Shown here piece after piece: positions 2,593 to 62,188 of a stretch of 64,000 nt of DNA. Both the position numbers and the translations under genes were made by a program. Each line of letters begins with the position of its first letter. Positions within the stretch are counted from its first letter, which is position 1. Origin of the DNA: Thiomicrorhabdus chilensis DSM 12352 (GTDB lineage: Bacteria > Pseudomonadota > Gammaproteobacteria > Thiomicrospirales > Thiomicrospiraceae). Location of the stretch: the NCBI RefSeq assembly GCF_000483485.1, contig NZ_KI519609.1, forward strand, positions 1,765,460 through 1,829,459, given 5' to 3'. The notes beneath the pieces are model-generated. The model did not search any database and was not told the DNA's origin. It saw only the letters and a list, made by a program, of their open reading frames with translations.

Positions 2593-4338
2593 CTAAGAGA
2601 ACACAGTAATTCGATTGCGACCTTGATCTTTGGACGAATAGAGCGCCACATCCACTCGTTTCAAAACTTCTCCAACCGATTCACCCGAACGATATTCGAT
2701 CACCCCTAAGCTCAAGGTGACCTGGTTGACGGGGTTGAAATCAAAGTTTTCAACTTTTAAACGAATGCGTTCTGCAATCGCCTCTGCCTCTTGAAGTCCC
2801 GTCTGGGGAAGCACCACGACAAACTCCTCTCCACCAAACCTTCCAAGCTTATCAACTTCACGCAAACAACTTTGAATCAGTCCAGTCAAGGTCACCAAAA
2901 CTTGATCGCCCACATCATGGCCGTAACGATCATTGACCTCTTTAAAAAAGTCCACATCCAGCATGATGACCGAAAAAGTCTCATGATAACGTTCATTACG
3001 ACGCACCTCGTCTTCAAGCTCGTTCATGCAGGCATAACGGTTTTGCACACCGGTCAAAGAATCGGTCAAGGCCAATTGTTCGAGTTGACGGTTGGCCACC
3101 CGTAATTCAGCGGTACGCTTGGTTACTTTGGCTTCCAGAGAAGCATTCAAATCCCTAAGTTCGGCGTTCTTAACTTTTATTTCAAGCTGATAACGTTTAA
3201 GAATCTTGCGCACGGTCACGGTCAGATAAAGTGAAACCAACACCGCGACGACGGTACTGACCGCACCGAGAACAAGGAGGTCTTGCAATCTTTGCTGATG
3301 CTGGGTACTCAGCGTTTTTTGCATTGATGCAACTTCCGCATCCACCTCCTGCTTATAAAAACCACTGCCTACCACCCAGTCCGTGCCGGGAACCTGCCTG
3401 ACATAAGTGCGTTTAACATCAATTTTCGCTGTTAGCGGGTTAACCCATCGGTACTCAATCAACCCCTTACCATCATCTTGAATGGCCGCATAAATCTTAT
3501 CTGAAAGCTCCTCAAGCAGCGGGTTATTGAATGCCGAAAAGTTTTTGCCTTCCAATTCAGGCCGAGAAGAATTCAACAGAATGTCACCCTGTGTGTTCAC
3601 AATAAACACGTAATCACTGCCATCCTTATCCACTTTTGAAATCGACTCCAAAAGCTCTCTATCGGTTTTATAGGTGGCCGTATCCAGATATTCCGCCGAG
3701 CCAAGATACCAGCCATAATGGTCAAACCCTTTTACAAACGCCAATTGTTTGAAATGTTTCTCCATAGACTCTCCGGGCTTGGTAAAACAATCCCAAAGAA
3801 AACCTTCCCCCTCATTGCGCACAATCGAAATCTCTTCTTTTATCACCTCGAGACCGTTTGCATCCTTGAAATCTAGAATGGAGCTGCCCTCCAGATGCTT
3901 CAAGTATTCCGGAGCCAGATAGAAAACCCCCTCATCATCCAATATCCAGATGAAGCTTTCTCCGTTATTCCACACTAAAGGCCTAAGGGCTTCTATGATG
4001 AGTTTTTTGAGCTCCGCTTCCGGGTAGATAAAAGCAAACTGCTGGTACAGGGCTTCTGCAATTTTGTAGGCATGTTCAACGCGAAGCTTAATACGGTCAT
4101 GCAGCTCCGCTTCGATAATCGATTTCCGGTAGGAAGCCAAGTCAACAATGCTGTCAACCTTGGCGCGAACGGAGGATTCACGAGACTCGATGCGCTCGCG
4201 TTCAAGTTGCTGATTAGTTTTATCAAAAGCGGACTGCTCGGACAATATGACCACAACTGCAATCGAAATCACAATGGCAGGGATGAGCAATAATGGTCCA
4301 AGCCCCAACAAGGTAATGAGCGATTTGCTTTTGATCAT
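2593..4338 (-). CDS. Cache-domain membrane diguanylate cyclase (GGDEF)
   Basis: 581 residues. An N-terminal membrane helix (about 8-30) and a second one (about 352-375) bracket a large periplasmic region with two Cache-type repeats (FIWILDDEG and YVFIVNTQG strands, each followed by a GWYLGS or WVVGSG strand), as in dCache sensors of small ligands. A coiled-coil linker (about 380-420) leads to a C-terminal GGDEF domain with GGEEF at 502-506, which should make c-di-GMP from two GTP. An RxxD inhibitory site (REVD, 493-496) sits at the canonical five-residue spacing, so product feedback is likely. There is no EAL domain. The ligand is unknown. It stands alone between the TonB receptor and the SulP transporter. 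Confidence 0.88.
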   Translation of the reverse strand: MIKSKSLITLLGLGPLLLIPAIVISIAVVVILSEQSAFDKTNQQLERERIESRESSVRAKVDSIVDLASYRKSIIEAELHDRIKLRVEHAYKIAEALYQQFAFIYPEAELKKLIIEALRPLVWNNGESFIWILDDEGVFYLAPEYLKHLEGSSILDFKDANGLEVIKEEISIVRNEGEGFLWDCFTKPGESMEKHFKQLAFVKGFDHYGWYLGSAEYLDTATYKTDRELLESISKVDKDGSDYVFIVNTQGDILLNSSRPELEGKNFSAFNNPLLEELSDKIYAAIQDDGKGLIEYRWVNPLTAKIDVKRTYVRQVPGTDWVVGSGFYKQEVDAEVASMQKTLSTQHQQRLQDLLVLGAVSTVVAVLVSLYLTVTVRKILKRYQLEIKVKNAELRDLNASLEAKVTKRTAELRVANRQLEQLALTDSLTGVQNRYACMNELEDEVRRNERYHETFSVIMLDVDFFKEVNDRYGHDVGDQVLVTLTGLIQSCLREVDKLGRFGGEEFVVVLPQTGLQEAEAIAERIRLKVENFDFNPVNQVTLSLGVIEYRSGESVGEVLKRVDVALYSSKDQGRNRITVFS

Positions 4339-4471: not shown

Positions 4472-4494
4472 AAAAAAGCCCCAAAAGGGGCCTT
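4472..4494 (-). terminator. Rho-independent terminator after the SulP transporter gene
   Basis: Read on the minus strand, a GC-rich hairpin (GCCCC / GGGGC, loop TTTT) is followed by a run of six T. It lies about 70 bp past the SulP stop and upstream of the diguanylate cyclase. Confidence 0.8.
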
Positions 4495-4517
4495 ATATTC
4501 ACTCAAGCTGTTTTGAC

Positions 4518-4539
4518 TGACTGCATTGAAATGCAGTCA
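4518..4539. repeat. Perfect 10-bp inverted repeat with 2-nt loop
   Basis: TGACTGCATT and AATGCAGTCA flank a GA dinucleotide, between the SulP stop and its terminator. With no T-run of its own it may act as an RNA 3' processing or stabilising hairpin, or as a protein site. Function unknown. Confidence 0.5.
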
Positions 4540-4564
4540 CGCTTCCAACCAAAGACTCTGGGAC

Positions 4565-6148
4565 TTACTCTTTTTTACCGCTGATGGAAACATGATAATG
4601 TGGATCTTCCGACACATTCACTTCAATCAGCTGCTTGGCATCACTCAACAACACCTGGCATTCCGGACTCAAATGTTTCAGCACCAGTTTTTTACCGGCC
4701 GCTTGGTATTTCTGAGTCAGGTTATTGATGGCTTCGATCCCGGTATGATCGTATACACGTGAGTGCATGAAATCAATCTGCACACAATCCGGGTCATCTT
4801 TAGGATCAAACAAATCAATAAAATTCTTAGCCGAAGCAAAAAACAACGGGCCATTCACCTTATAGGTCTTGACGGTTTTACCATCGCGTTCTTCAAGGGA
4901 TTCTTCCAGAATAATCCGTTGCGCATGTTGCCAGGCAAACACCAATGCCGAGACAATGACACCGGCAATGACCGCCACGGCCAAATCGAATATCACCGTC
5001 AACAAGGTGACCAACACCATGATAAAAGCATCGGCCTTGGTCATGCCGCGCATGATATTCCAACTCGACCAGTTAAAGGTGGCAATCACCACAAAAAACA
5101 TCAAACCGACCAAAGCCCCAATCGGTACCATTTCAATCCAGGATGAGGCAATCAACACAATCACCAGCAAACCCAAGGCTGCCGTCACACCCGACAAACG
5201 TCCGGTTCCCCCAGAATTGACATTGATCATGGACTGTCCAATCAAGGCACAGCCACCCATGGTTCCAAAGGTACCGGCGGTACAGTTGGCCGCCCCCAAG
5301 GCGATACATTCTTTATTGCCTTTACCGCGCGTATTGGTGATATCGTCGATCAAAGTCATGGTCAACAGGGATTCAACCGAACCGATAATGGTCAGAATCA
5401 CCGCATAAGGCAGAACAATCCACAAGGTTTGCAGGCTCCAAAAACCTTCAGGCAAGGTGGTGAACCAGCTCAAGCCCTGAAAACCACCCTCAACGCCATC
5501 ACCGAACACCAGTGATTCCAAGGTTCCCGAAACCGAAGCACGATCCCCTACCGTGACCGCATTGACATCGAATAGAATCACCGCAATGGACACCAGCACA
5601 ATCGCTGCCAGTGCCGATGGAACCGCCTTGGTAATTCTCGGCAACAAGTAGATAATCGCCAAGGTCGCGACGATAATCATCAACATGATATTCATACTCG
5701 CACCGGTCAGCCATTCGCCATTAACATCCTTAAACTGACCAAACTGGGCAAACAGGATGATCAACGCCAAGCCATTTACAAAGCCGAGCATCACCGGAGA
5801 CGGCACCATGCGAATGAATCGTCCCCACTTCATCACCCCGATGAATATCTGAAAGACCCCCATCATAATAACGGCCAGGAACAGATAGGAGGCGCCATGT
5901 TCCATGACCAGATGCATCATCACCACCGCCAAAGACCCGGCGGCAGCGGTAATCATCCCGGGACGTCCACCGAAAATCGCGGTAATCAATCCGACGATAA
6001 TGGCCGCATACAAACCTACCAATGGGTGCACGCCGGCTACAAAAGCAAAAGCGACCGCCTCCGGCACCAAGGCCAATGAGACGGTAATACCCGAAAGCGT
6101 ATCATTTTTATAAGTTTGCCACTTTAATGACGGATTGCTTTGATTCAT
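4565..6148 (-). CDS. SulP family anion transporter with STAS domain
   Basis: 527 residues. The N-terminal three quarters is a polytopic membrane domain with the SulP signatures near the start (LVPEAVAFAFVAGVHPLVGLYAA, given here in part) and GGCALIGQSMINVNSGG around residue 290. A cytoplasmic STAS domain occupies about 420-520. Members carry sulfate, bicarbonate or other anions, usually coupled to Na+ or H+. In autotrophs of this group SulP proteins have been linked to bicarbonate uptake, and the nearby RuBisCO cluster and beta-carbonic anhydrase make inorganic carbon the leading guess, but substrate cannot be read from the sequence. The start has the Shine-Dalgarno sequence GGAGC. It is a single-gene unit with its own terminator. 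Confidence 0.85.
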   Translation of the reverse strand: MNQSNPSLKWQTYKNDTLSGITVSLALVPEAVAFAFVAGVHPLVGLYAAIIVGLITAIFGGRPGMITAAAGSLAVVMMHLVMEHGASYLFLAVIMMGVFQIFIGVMKWGRFIRMVPSPVMLGFVNGLALIILFAQFGQFKDVNGEWLTGASMNIMLMIIVATLAIIYLLPRITKAVPSALAAIVLVSIAVILFDVNAVTVGDRASVSGTLESLVFGDGVEGGFQGLSWFTTLPEGFWSLQTLWIVLPYAVILTIIGSVESLLTMTLIDDITNTRGKGNKECIALGAANCTAGTFGTMGGCALIGQSMINVNSGGTGRLSGVTAALGLLVIVLIASSWIEMVPIGALVGLMFFVVIATFNWSSWNIMRGMTKADAFIMVLVTLLTVIFDLAVAVIAGVIVSALVFAWQHAQRIILEESLEERDGKTVKTYKVNGPLFFASAKNFIDLFDPKDDPDCVQIDFMHSRVYDHTGIEAINNLTQKYQAAGKKLVLKHLSPECQVLLSDAKQLIEVNVSEDPHYHVSISGKKE

Positions 6149-56999: not shown

Positions 57000-57149
57000 C
57001 TCTCATCCTAAGTACGTTAAACGGCTTATCAAAAACACATTCAATTCAAAAACACACTCTAATTTTCACATAAAACGGAATAAAAATGAGATAAAATACT
57101 CCGTGTTTTAAAAACAGTGGCTGTCCATAACAGCAACAATCACTTTTAC

Positions 57150-57236
57150 GCCAAGGGGTGGCAAATCGCCTGAGATCTTCGTCTGCCGAAGGAACCCTAT
57201 GAACCTGATCCAGTTAATACTGGCGTAGGGACAGGC
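57150..57236 (+). promoter_or_regulatory. TPP riboswitch (THI element)
   Basis: Conserved parts are present in order: GGGGTGGC, GCCTGAGA, ACCCTATGAACCTGATC, then a short CAGT/ACTGG stem and GCGTAGGGA, matching the thi-box consensus. Thiamin pyrophosphate binding should turn off the downstream thiamin transport genes. The gap from 57000 to 57334 contains no gene; upstream of the aptamer there is a TAAAAT -10 candidate at 57092-57097. The distance to the first ATG is about 100 nt. Confidence 0.95.
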
Positions 57237-57306
57237 CGCAATACATTACCAGTTCAATGCAATTCTTTGCTCACCAGCAAAGGTTCATCACCAATGTTCG
57301 CCCTGT

Positions 57307-57327
57307 CCTTTTATTTACAATAAAAGG
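57307..57327 (+). promoter_or_regulatory. Hairpin covering the Shine-Dalgarno of the receptor gene
   Basis: CCTTTTATT and AATAAAAGG pair perfectly around a 3-nt loop. The right arm contains the AAAAGG of the ribosome site just ahead of ATG 57335. This looks like the expression platform of the riboswitch: translation control by hiding the ribosome site. Inferred from position and perfect pairing. Confidence 0.65.
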
Positions 57328-57334
57328 AATCTTA

Positions 57335-59386
57335 ATGAAGCTTAAACCCAGCATTATTGCCATTAGCACATTAATCGCAAGCACATCAGCCGTTGCCGAA
57401 GAACTCAACACTATCGTTGTAGAAGCTGACTTTAGACCAACCCAAGTTGATGAGAGCACTTCAAGCGTTTCGGTCATCTCAGGCACCGAAGCAGAACAAT
57501 TAGGTGCAACCCATATGGAGACCCTGATCAACCAAGTTCCCAATATGAATGCAGCGGCAGGCGCATCCCGCCAACAATTCTTCCAGATCAGAGGGATTGG
57601 AGAGCGTTCGCAGTATGAATACCCGGTCAACCCATCTGTCGGGTTAATGATTGACGGCATGAACTTTAGTCATACGGGAGCTGCAGCTACCCTATTTGAC
57701 ACGGAACAAGTAGAAGTATTAAGAGGTCCACAAGGGACACGTTTTGGTGCCAATGCATTGGCAGGCATCATAAACATCCAGAGCAAAGAAGCCACTGAAA
57801 CACCAGAGCACGAAATTGAAATGACATACGGCAACTTCAATTCCAGTCGTCTCGGCGCGGTTTTAAGCGGGCCGATCATTGACAACAAAGTTCTCGGTCG
57901 CATCGCCATCCAGCAAAGTCGCTCAGATGGTTACATGGAAAATGACTACCTGGATAAAACTGACACACAAAACCAAGATGAAATTACTGCAAAAGCACAT
58001 TTAAAAATCATGGCCAACGATAAGCATACTATCGATTTGCGAGCCACGCATCTTAACATCGACAATGGCTATGACGGCTTTAATATGGAAAATGATTTGA
58101 CCACTATTACCGATGAGCCAGGCAAAGATAAACTAAAAGCAGATGCAGTTGCGCTTAAAAGTGAGTACAAACTGAATCCGAAAGTGAATATGGTCACCAA
58201 ATTAAGTCACATGAGCTCTTCTTCTCTATATTCTTTCGACGCTGACTGGGCCTACCCTGACTACCAAGGTGGGTGGGATCAATACTTTGCTGAATATGAC
58301 CGTTCCCGAACTGAAAACACCTTGGAGTTTAACTGGCTATCCTCTCCAGAAGGAAAAATCTTCAACAATTCGACTGACTGGGTTTTTGGCCTTTATGCGT
58401 CAAACTATAGTGAGGATATGATTTATGAAAAAAGCTGGTCAAGCAGTAATGAAGAGTTTGAATTGGATACCCAAAACAGAGCTGCATTTGGCCAGTTCGA
58501 TATCGCTTTAAATGATAAAGCGACACTGACAACCGGTTTACGTGTTGAGCAATATACAGCAAACATCAGCACCAATACCGGCATTAAAGATAATCATAAT
58601 GAAACACTTTTTGGTGGCAAAATTGGTCTTACTTACCAAGCTAATGACAACCATCAGGTATTTGGTAGCTTTTCACGTGGCTACAAAGCAGGAGGCTTAA
58701 ATGTAGAACCAAACTTACTGGTAAGCCAACTACCTTACGATACCGAGTATATGTGGAGTTTAGAAGCAGGATTAAACTCCAAATTTGCTAATCGCTTATC
58801 AACTCGCCTGAATTTCTTTTATTCAAAACGAGTCGATCAACAAGTCAAAAGCTCGGTGCAAACCGACCCGAATGATCCGCAAACTTTTACTGATTATTTC
58901 ACCAATGCGGCATTAGGTGAAACCTATGGTTTGGAGTTCATGGGTAACTGGCAAGCCACAAATAATTTACGCTTGATGTCGTCTTTGGGTTTATTAAAAA
59001 ACAAATTCATTGATTACACTAATCCTGAAGCAGGAGAACTGGATGGTCGTGACCAAGCACACTCACCCAATTATCAGTTCAGCCTAACGGGAGAATATGA
59101 AATCAACAATAACTGGCTTTGGATGGCGAACATGCAACGTAAAGATGCTTTTTACTTTTCCAACAATCATGATTCACAATCTAAGTCCTATACTCTTTTC
59201 AACACCAGCTTAGAGTATAGTAACGACGATGTAAGCGTGAACTTCTGGATACGTAACCTCATGAACACTGAATATGATGTTAGAGGTTTTTTCTTTGCGG
59301 TTGATCAAAGCACTTGGGAACCAGCTGAGTATACACAGCTAGGCGAGCCTAGAACCTTTGGTGTGACAGCACGTTATTTCTTCTAA
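57335..59386 (+). CDS. TonB-dependent receptor for thiamin (Omr1-like)
   Basis: 683 residues from ATG 57335, with AAAAGGAA upstream; a longer frame runs through the riboswitch leader. Signal peptide (about 1-21), plug domain (TIVVEADFRPTQVDE, ETLINQVPNMN, QIRGIG, VLRGPQGTRFGANALAG), and a barrel ending in the typical terminal aromatic YFF. The TPP riboswitch directly upstream indicates it imports thiamin or a precursor across the outer membrane. First gene of the operon. Confidence 0.92.
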   Translation: MKLKPSIIAISTLIASTSAVAEELNTIVVEADFRPTQVDESTSSVSVISGTEAEQLGATHMETLINQVPNMNAAAGASRQQFFQIRGIGERSQYEYPVNPSVGLMIDGMNFSHTGAAATLFDTEQVEVLRGPQGTRFGANALAGIINIQSKEATETPEHEIEMTYGNFNSSRLGAVLSGPIIDNKVLGRIAIQQSRSDGYMENDYLDKTDTQNQDEITAKAHLKIMANDKHTIDLRATHLNIDNGYDGFNMENDLTTITDEPGKDKLKADAVALKSEYKLNPKVNMVTKLSHMSSSSLYSFDADWAYPDYQGGWDQYFAEYDRSRTENTLEFNWLSSPEGKIFNNSTDWVFGLYASNYSEDMIYEKSWSSSNEEFELDTQNRAAFGQFDIALNDKATLTTGLRVEQYTANISTNTGIKDNHNETLFGGKIGLTYQANDNHQVFGSFSRGYKAGGLNVEPNLLVSQLPYDTEYMWSLEAGLNSKFANRLSTRLNFFYSKRVDQQVKSSVQTDPNDPQTFTDYFTNAALGETYGLEFMGNWQATNNLRLMSSLGLLKNKFIDYTNPEAGELDGRDQAHSPNYQFSLTGEYEINNNWLWMANMQRKDAFYFSNNHDSQSKSYTLFNTSLEYSNDDVSVNFWIRNLMNTEYDVRGFFFAVDQSTWEPAEYTQLGEPRTFGVTARYFF

Positions 59387-59392
59387 ATCCAT

Positions 59393-59412
59393 CAGGGCTC
59401 TTTGGAGCCCTG
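59393..59412 (+). other. Strong hairpin between receptor and next gene
   Basis: CAGGGCTC and GAGCCCTG with a 4-nt loop directly after the receptor stop, without a T-run. It may stabilise the receptor mRNA or reduce read-through to the smaller genes, giving more receptor than inner-membrane components. Confidence 0.55.
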
Positions 59413-59429
59413 CCTAATAGGAATTAGAC

Positions 59430-59672
59430 ATGCAAATTTCTGTTGAAGTCAGCCTATACCCACTACAAGAATCGTATATAAAGCCCATCACACAGTTTAT
59501 TGAACGCCTCGAAACACATTCTGACCTCATCGTGTCTCATGGCATCATGAGCTCAACCATTCTGGGAGATTATCAACAGATAATGGCGATATTAACGACA
59601 GAAATGGAACAGAGCCTAAAAGCGATTCCTGAAAGTGTTTTCATCATCAAACTTTCCGGTGGTTGCCGCTAA
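59430..59672 (+). CDS. Single-domain thiamin-binding protein (YkoF/MTH1187-like), copy 1
   Basis: 80 residues: MQISVEVSLYPLQESYIKPI, then a helix and a GDYQQIMAILTTEME strand-helix, matching a single ferredoxin-like domain of the thiamin-binding family. YkoF proteins bind thiamin or its pyrimidine part in the cytoplasm. Paralogous to the gene at 60339. No signal peptide. Confidence 0.8.
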   Translation: MQISVEVSLYPLQESYIKPITQFIERLETHSDLIVSHGIMSSTILGDYQQIMAILTTEMEQSLKAIPESVFIIKLSGGCR

Positions 59673-59700
59673 GAATGAACTTGCTCTAAAGGAACTTAAC

Positions 59701-60327
59701 ATGCCTAAAACAAAAGGATATGAAGCTCACGCCCAACACTATGATGCCTGGTTTGACAAGAATCCGGACATCTATCAAGCCGAAATAGCCGCAATCAAAC
59801 AGCTTTTACCTTCAGGTAAAGGCATTGAAATCGGCGCTGGAAGTGGGCGCTTTACGCAACCCCTTGAAATTGATACCGGTGTTGAACCCGCTGAAAAAAT
59901 GCGTGAAATCGCTCAACAACGTGGTCTAAATGTGATGGCTGGCGTTGCGGAAGCCCTGCCGGTTGACAATGACAGCTACGATTTTGCGATTTTTGTGACA
60001 TCAACCTGCTTTTTGGACGACCCGCAACTGGCTTATGAAGAAGCGTTTCGTGTCGTCAAAAAGCAAGGGGCGATTGTGATCGCTTTTCTGGAAAAGAATT
60101 CAGAACTCGGCAAAGTTTACGAGGAACATAAACACAACGACCCTCTATTTTGTGATGCCACCTTCTACAGTTATGCCGAAATAGAATCCATGCTTAAAAA
60201 AGCCGGTTTCGACCATTTCAAATCGATGCAGACCATTCTGCCGGAATCCAAAGACCATAAACCCACCGACATTTTGGTGGGACACGATTCAGGCGCCTTT
60301 GTGGTGGTTCGAGCGGATAAAAAGTAA
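59701..60327 (+). CDS. Class I SAM-dependent methyltransferase in the thiamin operon
   Basis: 208 residues from ATG 59701 (MPKTKGYEAHAQHYDAWF), AAAGGAAC upstream. SAM-binding motif EIGAGSGRF at 43-51, then ALPVDNDSYDFAIFVT and an RVVKKQGAIVIAFLEK strand-helix as in Methyltransf_11 proteins. Substrate unknown. It lies between two paralogous thiamin-binding genes under the TPP riboswitch, so a thiamin-linked substrate is possible but unproven. Confidence 0.85.
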   Translation: MPKTKGYEAHAQHYDAWFDKNPDIYQAEIAAIKQLLPSGKGIEIGAGSGRFTQPLEIDTGVEPAEKMREIAQQRGLNVMAGVAEALPVDNDSYDFAIFVTSTCFLDDPQLAYEEAFRVVKKQGAIVIAFLEKNSELGKVYEEHKHNDPLFCDATFYSYAEIESMLKKAGFDHFKSMQTILPESKDHKPTDILVGHDSGAFVVVRADKK

Positions 60328-60338
60328 AAGGAAAAACA

Positions 60339-60608
60339 ATGAATGTATCTATTGATATCAGCATGTACCCTCTTAATGAGCAATACTGCCAACCGATTTT
60401 GGACTTTATTAACCAAATCGAACAAAACCCGAAACTGAAAATTGAACGCAATGCCATGAGCACCCAGGTATTTGGAGACTATCGCACGGTGATGGCCGAA
60501 ATCAGCGAAGAAATGTTGATTGCGCTGGAAAAACTGCCGACCACCGTCTTTGTTTTAAAACTGGTTGGTACCGACCGCTCCAACGCACGGATCCGTAGCT
60601 GTGAATGA
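60339..60608 (+). CDS. Single-domain thiamin-binding protein (YkoF/MTH1187-like), copy 2
   Basis: 89 residues, MNVSIDISMYPLNEQYCQPI start and GDYRTVMAEISEEM core, clearly related to copy 1 in length and pattern. Its last codons overlap the GTG of the transporter gene. Two different domain copies may form a heterodimer like the two-domain YkoF. Confidence 0.82.
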   Translation: MNVSIDISMYPLNEQYCQPILDFINQIEQNPKLKIERNAMSTQVFGDYRTVMAEISEEMLIALEKLPTTVFVLKLVGTDRSNARIRSCE

Positions 60609-61236
60609 TAGCGATAGCAGTCTTTACCTGACCATCTGGCAAAGTTTTCTCAGCTTGTCTGGTTGGGAGGTGCTCGCCACCCTACTGGGCATCGCTTATG
60701 TGGTGCTCGCCACTCGCGAATCCATCTGGTGTTGGCCGGCTGCGTTTATCAGCACACTCATCTATACCTTTCTGTTCTGGGAAGGCCAGTTGCCGATGCA
60801 GGCGCTACTTAACGCCTATTATTTGCTGATGGCCGTTTATGGATGGTCATTATGGCGAAAACACCCTAATCATAAAAACGACCTAACCATCACCACCAGG
60901 CCTGTTCATTTTCATCTAACATTTATTGCAGTCGGAAGCTTGCTGACCCTGCTGACCGCTTATTATCTGGAAAATGTTATCGAATCCCGACTCCCCTATC
61001 TGGATGCGGCCGTGACCGTATTTTCAGTGATGAACACGGTTCTTATGGCTCGTAAAATCCTGGAAAACTGGCTTTACTGGCTGGTCATCGATGCGGCGGC
61101 CATCGCACTCTATTGGCAAACCGGATACTACGTGACCATCACCATGTTTGCGGTCTATCTTGTATTGGCGGTCATTGGCTATCTGAACTGGAAACAACAC
61201 TACCTGGGTTTGCATGCGCCTATTAAGGCGAGCTGA
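60601..61236 (+). CDS. pnuT: PnuC-type thiamin transporter (PnuT)
   Basis: 211 residues from GTG 60601 (coupled to the previous stop, GTGAATGA). Seven membrane helices with the PnuC-family WCWPAAFISTLIYTFLFWEG and LLNAYYLLMAVYGW pattern. PnuT members import thiamin or a phosphate-free precursor by facilitated diffusion with trapping by phosphorylation. A CAGGCCTG copy lies inside this gene at 60897-60913. It meets the kinase-like gene tail to tail with a 14-bp overlap. Confidence 0.85.
   Translation: MNDSDSSLYLTIWQSFLSLSGWEVLATLLGIAYVVLATRESIWCWPAAFISTLIYTFLFWEGQLPMQALLNAYYLLMAVYGWSLWRKHPNHKNDLTITTRPVHFHLTFIAVGSLLTLLTAYYLENVIESRLPYLDAAVTVFSVMNTVLMARKILENWLYWLVIDAAAIALYWQTGYYVTITMFAVYLVLAVIGYLNWKQHYLGLHAPIKAS
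60897..60913. repeat. CAGGCCTG motif inside pnuT coding sequence
   Basis: CAGGCCTGTTCATTTTC lies in frame within pnuT and encodes part of a loop (RPVHFH). Identical in 17 of 17 bases to an arm of the lon terminator (28149-28165). Confidence 0.6.
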
Positions 61237-62188
61237 GGCTTTTTGTTTGCAACAAAGCAAAAGACTCGGGAACCGCCATCCATTTCTCAAGGGAGAACTC
61301 TCCCAGCACCCCCATCAAAAACAACAACAAACGGTAAACTGTTCTGACTTCAGAAAGATCCGGCAACTGAAGATAACGTTGGTAAGAGATGGCGAAGACC
61401 TCCACCCAATCCGTCTCCAAAAGATATTCCAACAATACCAATTCGAGTTCACGGCGCCCCCAGACCATTGCATCCAAATCGACTAAAGCGTGTAGCCGTC
61501 CTGATTTCGATAAAAACTGATCCCAACGTAAATCCGGCATAATCGGCACAAAGCCCTCTGTCGAGGCTCTATCAATTCGTTTGAATTGATCCAATTGCTT
61601 TTCATAAGGCTGTAACGAAACCGCTTGCTGTTGAGCCAGCTCCGTGATCACTGAATGCACTCTTTGCCCCCACCCTTGCGCATCCAAGCCAGCGGCAAAC
61701 AAAGAACCATAAGACTTGGAAGACTGCTGATGCAGACGCCCCAGATGACTCCCCAAATCCGCCGCCATGTCTGCGTTCACCTGACTCGATACCAAAGCAT
61801 CGCCTTCAAGCTTTTGAGTAAGCAAAACACTGGCGTACTCCGGACCACCCGATTGCGCCAAATGCAGCTTGGGGATACTCAAAACACTCCAAGACTCAAG
61901 CAGGCGATAGACTTCTGGGTAGGCCTCGATTTCCTGAGGGTAACGCAATTCAAACAGGCGCTGCATCCCCTGCCAAAAAGGGGAACGACTGACATTAGAC
62001 AGTGGACAAAGTTTCAATACCCCCTTTTCAAGCTTACCGGCATTCAACCAGCTGACTTGCCACAATTGATTGGTACTGTCCTCGAAAGCTTTCGGCAAAA
62101 ACTCTACGGACTCAAATGCTGGCAATTCGGCCAATTGTGAAGCATTCAAATAATGTGAAATAGTCGTTCCATTCATAGGAACCATCAT
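61223..62188 (-). CDS. APH-fold kinase-like protein beside the thiamin operon
   Basis: 321 residues with an aminoglycoside-phosphotransferase/choline-kinase-like layout: N-lobe with SVLLTQKLEGDAL, then MPDLRWDQFLSKSG and LHALVDLDAMVWGRRELEL. The catalytic loop Asp is kept (PDLRWDQF), but the usual HGD-x4-N residues are altered, as is the DFG-type site (VDLDA). Thiamin kinases (ThiK/TnK) belong to this fold, and PnuT-type transporters need such trapping, so thiamin phosphorylation is the best guess. It is on the opposite strand and not under the riboswitch. Start ATG 62188 or 62176. Confidence 0.6.
   Translation of the reverse strand: MMVPMNGTTISHYLNASQLAELPAFESVEFLPKAFEDSTNQLWQVSWLNAGKLEKGVLKLCPLSNVSRSPFWQGMQRLFELRYPQEIEAYPEVYRLLESWSVLSIPKLHLAQSGGPEYASVLLTQKLEGDALVSSQVNADMAADLGSHLGRLHQQSSKSYGSLFAAGLDAQGWGQRVHSVITELAQQQAVSLQPYEKQLDQFKRIDRASTEGFVPIMPDLRWDQFLSKSGRLHALVDLDAMVWGRRELELVLLEYLLETDWVEVFAISYQRYLQLPDLSEVRTVYRLLLFLMGVLGEFSLEKWMAVPESFALLQTKSLSSP

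Follow-up and report, generated by a model that had tools for sequence, protein, structure and literature searches.

The 64,000-nucleotide stretch of DNA analysed here (the window) carries a riboswitch-headed thiamin (vitamin B1) uptake operon into which a second YkoF-like gene (YkoFa) and the gene for a class I SAM-dependent methyltransferase (MT) appear to have been placed as an optional cassette. We give about an even chance to the reading that MT methylates a thiamin-related molecule, the likeliest being an analogue or a damage product. The uptake operon is the known part of this arrangement and the addition of YkoFa and MT to it is the new part, suggesting that some sulfur-oxidising bacteria subject vitamin B1 or a similar molecule to a reaction not yet described. 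More tentatively, a dedicated MT with its own YkoF-type protein may modify thiamin, a thiamin fragment or an antivitamin during riboswitch-controlled uptake, which would be a case of methylation outside antivitamin synthesis. The locus comprises:

57144–57249, + strand: TPP riboswitch (RF00059), heading the operon (Rfam 74.1 bits, E = 9.7e-13)
57335–59386, + strand: TonB-dependent outer-membrane receptor, presumed thiamin receptor (Pfam TonB_dep_Rec_b-barrel 4.2e-29, Plug 4.9e-17)
59430–59672, + strand: YkoFa, YkoF-like domain protein, 80 aa (Pfam Ykof 21.3 bits)
59701–60327, + strand: MT, class I SAM-dependent methyltransferase of the TM1293 family, 208 aa (Methyltransf_11 6.7e-14; 1VLM 9.1e-54)
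60339–60608, + strand: YkoFb, core YkoF-like protein, 89 aa (below Pfam cut-offs; profile matches to MJ1052 and YkoF)
60601–61236, + strand: PnuC/PnuT-type transporter, presumed thiamin transporter (PF04973 175 bits; TIGR01528 85.5 bits)
61223–62188, − strand: APH-fold kinase, candidate thiamin kinase, convergent with the operon (PF01636 25.1 bits)

All the components that a sequence-only reading of this DNA had assigned to an uptake operon (TPP riboswitch, TonB receptor, two YkoF-type proteins and a PnuC-type transporter) were found, and on one strand. The riboswitch passes the covariance-model cut-off (gathering score 54.3) and begins 6 bases upstream of position 57150, where that reading had set the start of the locus. 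In the receptor, both plug and barrel domains were matched; its longest open reading frame spans 57257–59386, and a signal-peptide-like N terminus makes a start at 57335 more likely than one at 57257. The intergenic gaps measure 43 (TonB–YkoFa), 28 (YkoFa–MT) and 11 (MT–YkoFb) bases, and the GTG start codon of the transporter at 60601 overlaps the YkoFb stop. From the riboswitch, the single strand, these short gaps and a conserved gene order, we infer a single transcript produced under TPP shortage. The genes flanking MT in the window encode HDOD, TonB, YkoF-like, PnuT, APH and PCMT proteins. The transporter belongs to the PnuC fold family (PF04973), and the NCBIfam equivalog that it passes is PnuC, for nicotinamide riboside; thiamin is its presumed substrate, to which the riboswitch context alone points. 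Elsewhere in the genome, one other TPP riboswitch precedes what appears, judging by sequence, to be thiC-thiO-thiS-thiG-thiDE; the host therefore probably makes its own thiamin too.

In Bacillus subtilis, YkoF is the thiamin/HMP-binding protein of the ykoC–F transporter. YkoFa and YkoFb show weak profile similarity to both halves of it (PDB 1S7H, 1S99, 1SBR), but they are single-domain proteins with no ABC/ECF transporter genes alongside. The proposal that two binding-protein genes flank MT holds for the position of the YkoF-like pair but less well for its family assignment: YkoFa passes the Pfam Ykof (PF07615) cut-off marginally (21.3 versus 21 bits), and YkoFb falls below those of both Ykof (15.2 versus 21) and Thiamine_BP (PF01910; 17.0 versus 24.9). 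We therefore call YkoFb YkoF-like only, on its homology to YkoFa and its profile matches. When compared with solved structures, a profile built from the YkoFa and YkoFb types matched MJ1052 (4e-4) and whole B. subtilis YkoF (8e-4), and gave no significant match to either half of B. subtilis YkoF alone.

The gene between the YkoF genes encodes a class I methyltransferase (Methyltransf_11 6.7e-14), as had been read from the sequence. It resembles TM1293 of Thermotoga maritima (PDB 1VLM; 9.1e-54, 42% identity over 204 residues), with which it shares the same conserved residues, and its AlphaFold model (pLDDT 90) aligns with 1VLM over 204 residues (Z 33.8, rmsd 1.6). The depositors titled 1VLM ‘possible histamine N-methyltransferase’, and an excerpt of a later paper (PMC2613160) uses it as a template labelled histamine N-MT; our search of the literature on TM1293 and 1VLM found no tested function. 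All 27 homologues compared from beyond the thiamin-linked clade described below keep the SAM-site glycines G45 and G47. At least 15 of the 16 clade members and at least 90% of the 27 others have 33 positions in common, a count that omits the MT rows L041, L042, L064 and L065; these include Y14, W17, F18, T100, C103, Y140, F155 and Q177. The conserved aromatic residues among them (Y14, W17, F18, Y140 and F155) point to an aromatic small-molecule pocket, and at F149, a further position of aromatic type, the MT of the window carries Leu. Because thiamin-linked and unlinked members share these 33 positions, the family may do one general job everywhere. The fold is common to many small-molecule methyltransferases.

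That fold bears on one alternative, in which uptake is adjusted through methylation by MT of a YkoF protein, the transporter or the receptor. The genes are adjacent, and the YkoF proteins carry a Cys near their C terminus that is almost invariant. Against this, the characterised enzymes nearest in fold include many that act on small molecules, though protein and tRNA methyltransferases figure among the fold matches too, and the MT family is widespread without YkoF. We consider protein methylation very improbable.

The link between MT and the operon is stronger than the sequence-only reading could have known. Within the order (62 genomes searched), 17 genomes have an MT homologue (< 1e-40), and 16 of these proteins (window, L018–L031 and L087) form one clade (100/99). 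All 16 sit in this operon, between the TonB gene and YkoFb/PnuT. In each of the 14 relatives checked for strand, all operon genes lie on the same one, and Rfam places a TPP riboswitch in 14 of 14 MT-bearing relatives; the sequence of L087 starts within the TonB gene and so does not reach the place where a riboswitch would lie. The absence of MT from all related thiamin operons, which would have marked it as a chance insertion, was not what the genome comparison returned (16/16), and this conservation rules out an insertion confined to one genome. MT is an accessory to the operon. The seventeenth homologue in the order, L088, is a 44% relative from within the genus that lies beside DsrE and phosphatase genes with no thiamin neighbour. 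In a phylum-wide search at 1e-40, only the genome of the window among 398 had MT, and a further contig scan gave 10 loci, 8 of them from close relatives.

MT is nevertheless optional. Among 58 genomes of the family, 15 have MT (E < 1e-20) and 50 have the transporter, and 35 of those 50 lack MT. Its presence changed at least four times on the tree of the flanking genes (23 rows), and eight times on the transporter tree (37 rows, among them that of L072), where at least five changes are forced. No other MT copy was found in the genomes of these gain or loss events at E 1e-20 (1e-40 for G425). This patchy, repeatedly gained and lost distribution favours an optional add-on to uptake over a core biosynthetic step.

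The operon also occurs without MT. In 20 of the 35 MT-less family loci, we found TonB and PnuT genes in 20/20, one YkoF gene in 19/20 (none was seen in L095), a kinase gene in 18/20 and an Rfam TPP riboswitch in 17/20; the loci with no Rfam riboswitch are L095, L097 and L102, the last of which ends inside the TonB gene. Across 369 genomes of the class, a similar transporter (< 1e-25) occurs in 21, of which 18 lie outside the family. Among 17 of these 18 loci we found TonB (17), YkoF (15), a TPP riboswitch (15, with L137 and L139 ending inside the TonB gene) and, beside the transporter, a match-supported kinase-like gene (10), and none has MT; the eighteenth, L072, does. The basic operon of riboswitch, TonB receptor, one YkoF and PnuT therefore recurs in other families of the class. 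Riboswitch counts throughout are those of Rfam; a regular-expression search missed the one at L075 and gave extra matches, including one at L042 that Rfam did not confirm. A kinase gene adjoins the transporter gene in 14/14 MT-bearing and 18/20 MT-less family loci. This placing of an APH-type kinase beside the transporter recalls the thiamin kinase ThiK of Escherichia coli; among 10 kinases compared with ThiK, 5 match weakly and that of the window shows no similarity. The convergent APH-fold kinase may be a diverged thiamin kinase, too distant to match ThiK directly.

YkoFa follows MT closely. Within the 62 genomes of the order, a second YkoF gene is present in 13 of the 16 with an operon MT and in none of the 46 without, 35 of which have one YkoF (Fisher p < 1e-8, a statistic that ignores relatedness). 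The 13 YkoFa proteins form one clade (96/89) separate from YkoFb, which is also present in MT-less operons; these are short proteins and the bootstrap is not settled. Since a second YkoF occurs solely with MT, the YkoFa proteins form one clade and MT presence has changed at least four times, YkoFa and MT behave as a cassette. In independent pairs, YkoFa either went with MT or did not differ, with too few pairs and events for significance. YkoFa is missing from three of the 16 MT-bearing operons (L027, L030 and L031) and from that of L072, and so is not required. Separately, two Hydrogenovibrio/Thiomicrospira operons have repeats in the gap between MT and YkoFb: direct and inverted repeats in L031 (5652–6607) and one inverted repeat pair in L030 (6446–6781).

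Class-wide, MT homologues (< 1e-40) occur in 25 of 369 genomes, of which 23 belong to other families; these 23 include three pairs from a shared genus, which do not count as independent. We examined the neighbourhoods of all 23, covering 2 to 3 kb only for L064, L065, L066 and L080. Ten thi-related proteins used as queries matched nothing in the DNA around 21 of the 23, where a TPP riboswitch was likewise not found, and no thiamin neighbour was seen around four of four plasmid homologues fetched or around the distant L041 and L042. As a clue to substrate, the neighbours of unlinked homologues gave no consistent partner, each type occurring once to a few times: aminotransferases of class I/II (L078, L083), of the DegT type (L067) or annotated as ‘histidinol-phosphate transaminase’ (L109), ZIP transporters (L073, L110), peroxiredoxins (L080, L109), DsrE (L088), MerR (L070) and malic enzyme (L071). 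Where loci are rich in G+C, genes were called only roughly, and some of the longest open reading frames there are probably antisense.

The two exceptions are both linked to thiamin genes. L072 has the order TPP riboswitch, TonB, MT, YkoF, PnuT, with a 42% identical MT. This MT groups with the unlinked L088 as its sister, and a tree that unites every thiamin-linked MT in one clade, as descent from a single origin would require, is disfavoured (AU p 0.022). The L072 operon thus apparently represents a separate recruitment of MT into an equivalent operon, a placement that comes from one tree (p 0.022) and a draft genome with 3% listed contamination; none of four other genomes of its order has MT. 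Among 11 positions specific to the thiamin clade, A128 is found in all 16 members and, among the 27 others, in L072 alone, a suggestive link that was found post hoc and on which we do not rely. In L075, MT is the divergent neighbour of TPP riboswitch-thiC-thiO-thiG; it is adjacent to the riboswitch but, being on the opposite strand, is not controlled by it. The chance of finding at least two thiamin-linked genes among the 23 is P 0.004 to 0.03, and that of at least one (L072 alone) is P 0.09 to 0.24; both are rough and use adjacency assumptions made after the result was seen. By this estimate two linked genes exceed chance, and one could be due to it. That MT belongs to the uptake operon, as first proposed for the window, is upheld by the 16 clade genomes and finds further support in L072 and L075.

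These loci are where MT as a passenger has to be weighed: it could be a general TM1293-family enzyme with an unrelated substrate, kept for useful expression or by recombination within the operon. Most homologues do adjoin unrelated genes and the 33 positions are shared family-wide. In L072, moreover, 141-bp direct repeats (3495–3635 and 4472–4612) flank the MT gene; the element has 41 matches in that genome, offering a route for chance insertion and a plausible one for the entry of MT into the operon. A passenger would not, however, be expected to have a second YkoF nested exactly within the MT-bearing genomes, to be recruited, apparently separately, to the same type of operon in L072 and to lie beside thiC in a third lineage (L075), or to be gained and lost repeatedly in genomes with no further MT copy. 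We regard a passenger as unlikely, while acknowledging what counts against a thiamin derivative as substrate, namely the 35 of 50 transporter-bearing genomes without MT, the 21 of 23 unlinked outside homologues and the family-wide conservation of residues.

On the reading that MT acts on a thiamin-related molecule, low TPP would turn the operon on. From what is known of the respective families, thiamin and molecules like it would cross the outer membrane through the TonB receptor and equilibrate over the inner membrane by way of the PnuT-type transporter, the kinase nearby would trap those imported, and YkoFb would bind the pyrimidine part; an excerpt of PMC5627462 describes YkoF as binding the HMP moiety. 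In the new steps, YkoFa, the duplicate, would bind a thiamin-related molecule or pass it on, and MT would methylate that molecule using SAM. The likeliest purpose would be to neutralise or condition an analogue or damage product that uptake cannot exclude, such as an antivitamin, a ring-opened thiol or an oxidised form. A freshwater cyanobacterium releases thiamin antivitamins, according to part of PMC12345177, which also describes effects of thiamin and toxic mimics on aquatic microbial communities.

The sequence-only reading had proposed that MT may modify or recycle a thiamin derivative. In the salvage form of this idea, a thiamin fragment or analogue that the cell imports but cannot use as it stands would be converted by MT into a usable compound. 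The same linkage evidence and the TPP control of the uptake operon fit salvage. Known salvage of degraded thiamin uses TenA, yet the TenA family is absent from 57 of the 58 family genomes, and the apparent thiC–thiDE operon means that salvage is probably not essential. Nor is any thiamin precursor known to need methylation by SAM at a late step. As the host seems to have a thiC operon, TenA is missing from 57/58 genomes and the cassette comes and goes, we prefer neutralising or conditioning to salvage, which we consider improbable. The sole TenA-family gene among the 58 genomes is in G053 (C61:8706–9308).

Among described systems, the OMthi and pnuT-tnr3 loci of Bacteroides thetaiotaomicron, in the extract of PMC5613172, are similar in having TPP riboswitches, an outer-membrane receptor, a PnuT-type transporter and a phosphorylating or kinase-type gene nearby. 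The genes described here, by contrast, form a single operon that also encodes YkoF-like proteins and, in some genomes, MT; that extract mentions no MT. The bacimethrin cluster with thiaminase I likewise has a SAM-dependent methyltransferase in a thiamin-related, perhaps TPP-controlled operon, but its thymidylate synthase, nucleoside deoxyribosyltransferase and thiaminase I, as given in the excerpt of PMC5627462, were not seen among the window genes; the two loci are set apart by gene content. Titles and the starts of abstracts, mainly from open-access literature, gave no description of an MT in such an operon.

For the TM1293 enzyme family, the operon supplies a substrate hypothesis that could be tested with few compounds. 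Should MT act on an antivitamin or damaged thiamin, the locus would show how vitamin B1 importers with permissive transporters handle co-imported molecules, perhaps as a layer of resistance or quality control on B1 scavenging.

The receptor gene may have a history of its own. The TonB receptor of the window shares 48–50% identity with its counterparts in L027, L090 and L096 but about 37% with the one in L089, the locus closest to the window by transporter, which may reflect exchange of the receptor gene between lineages.
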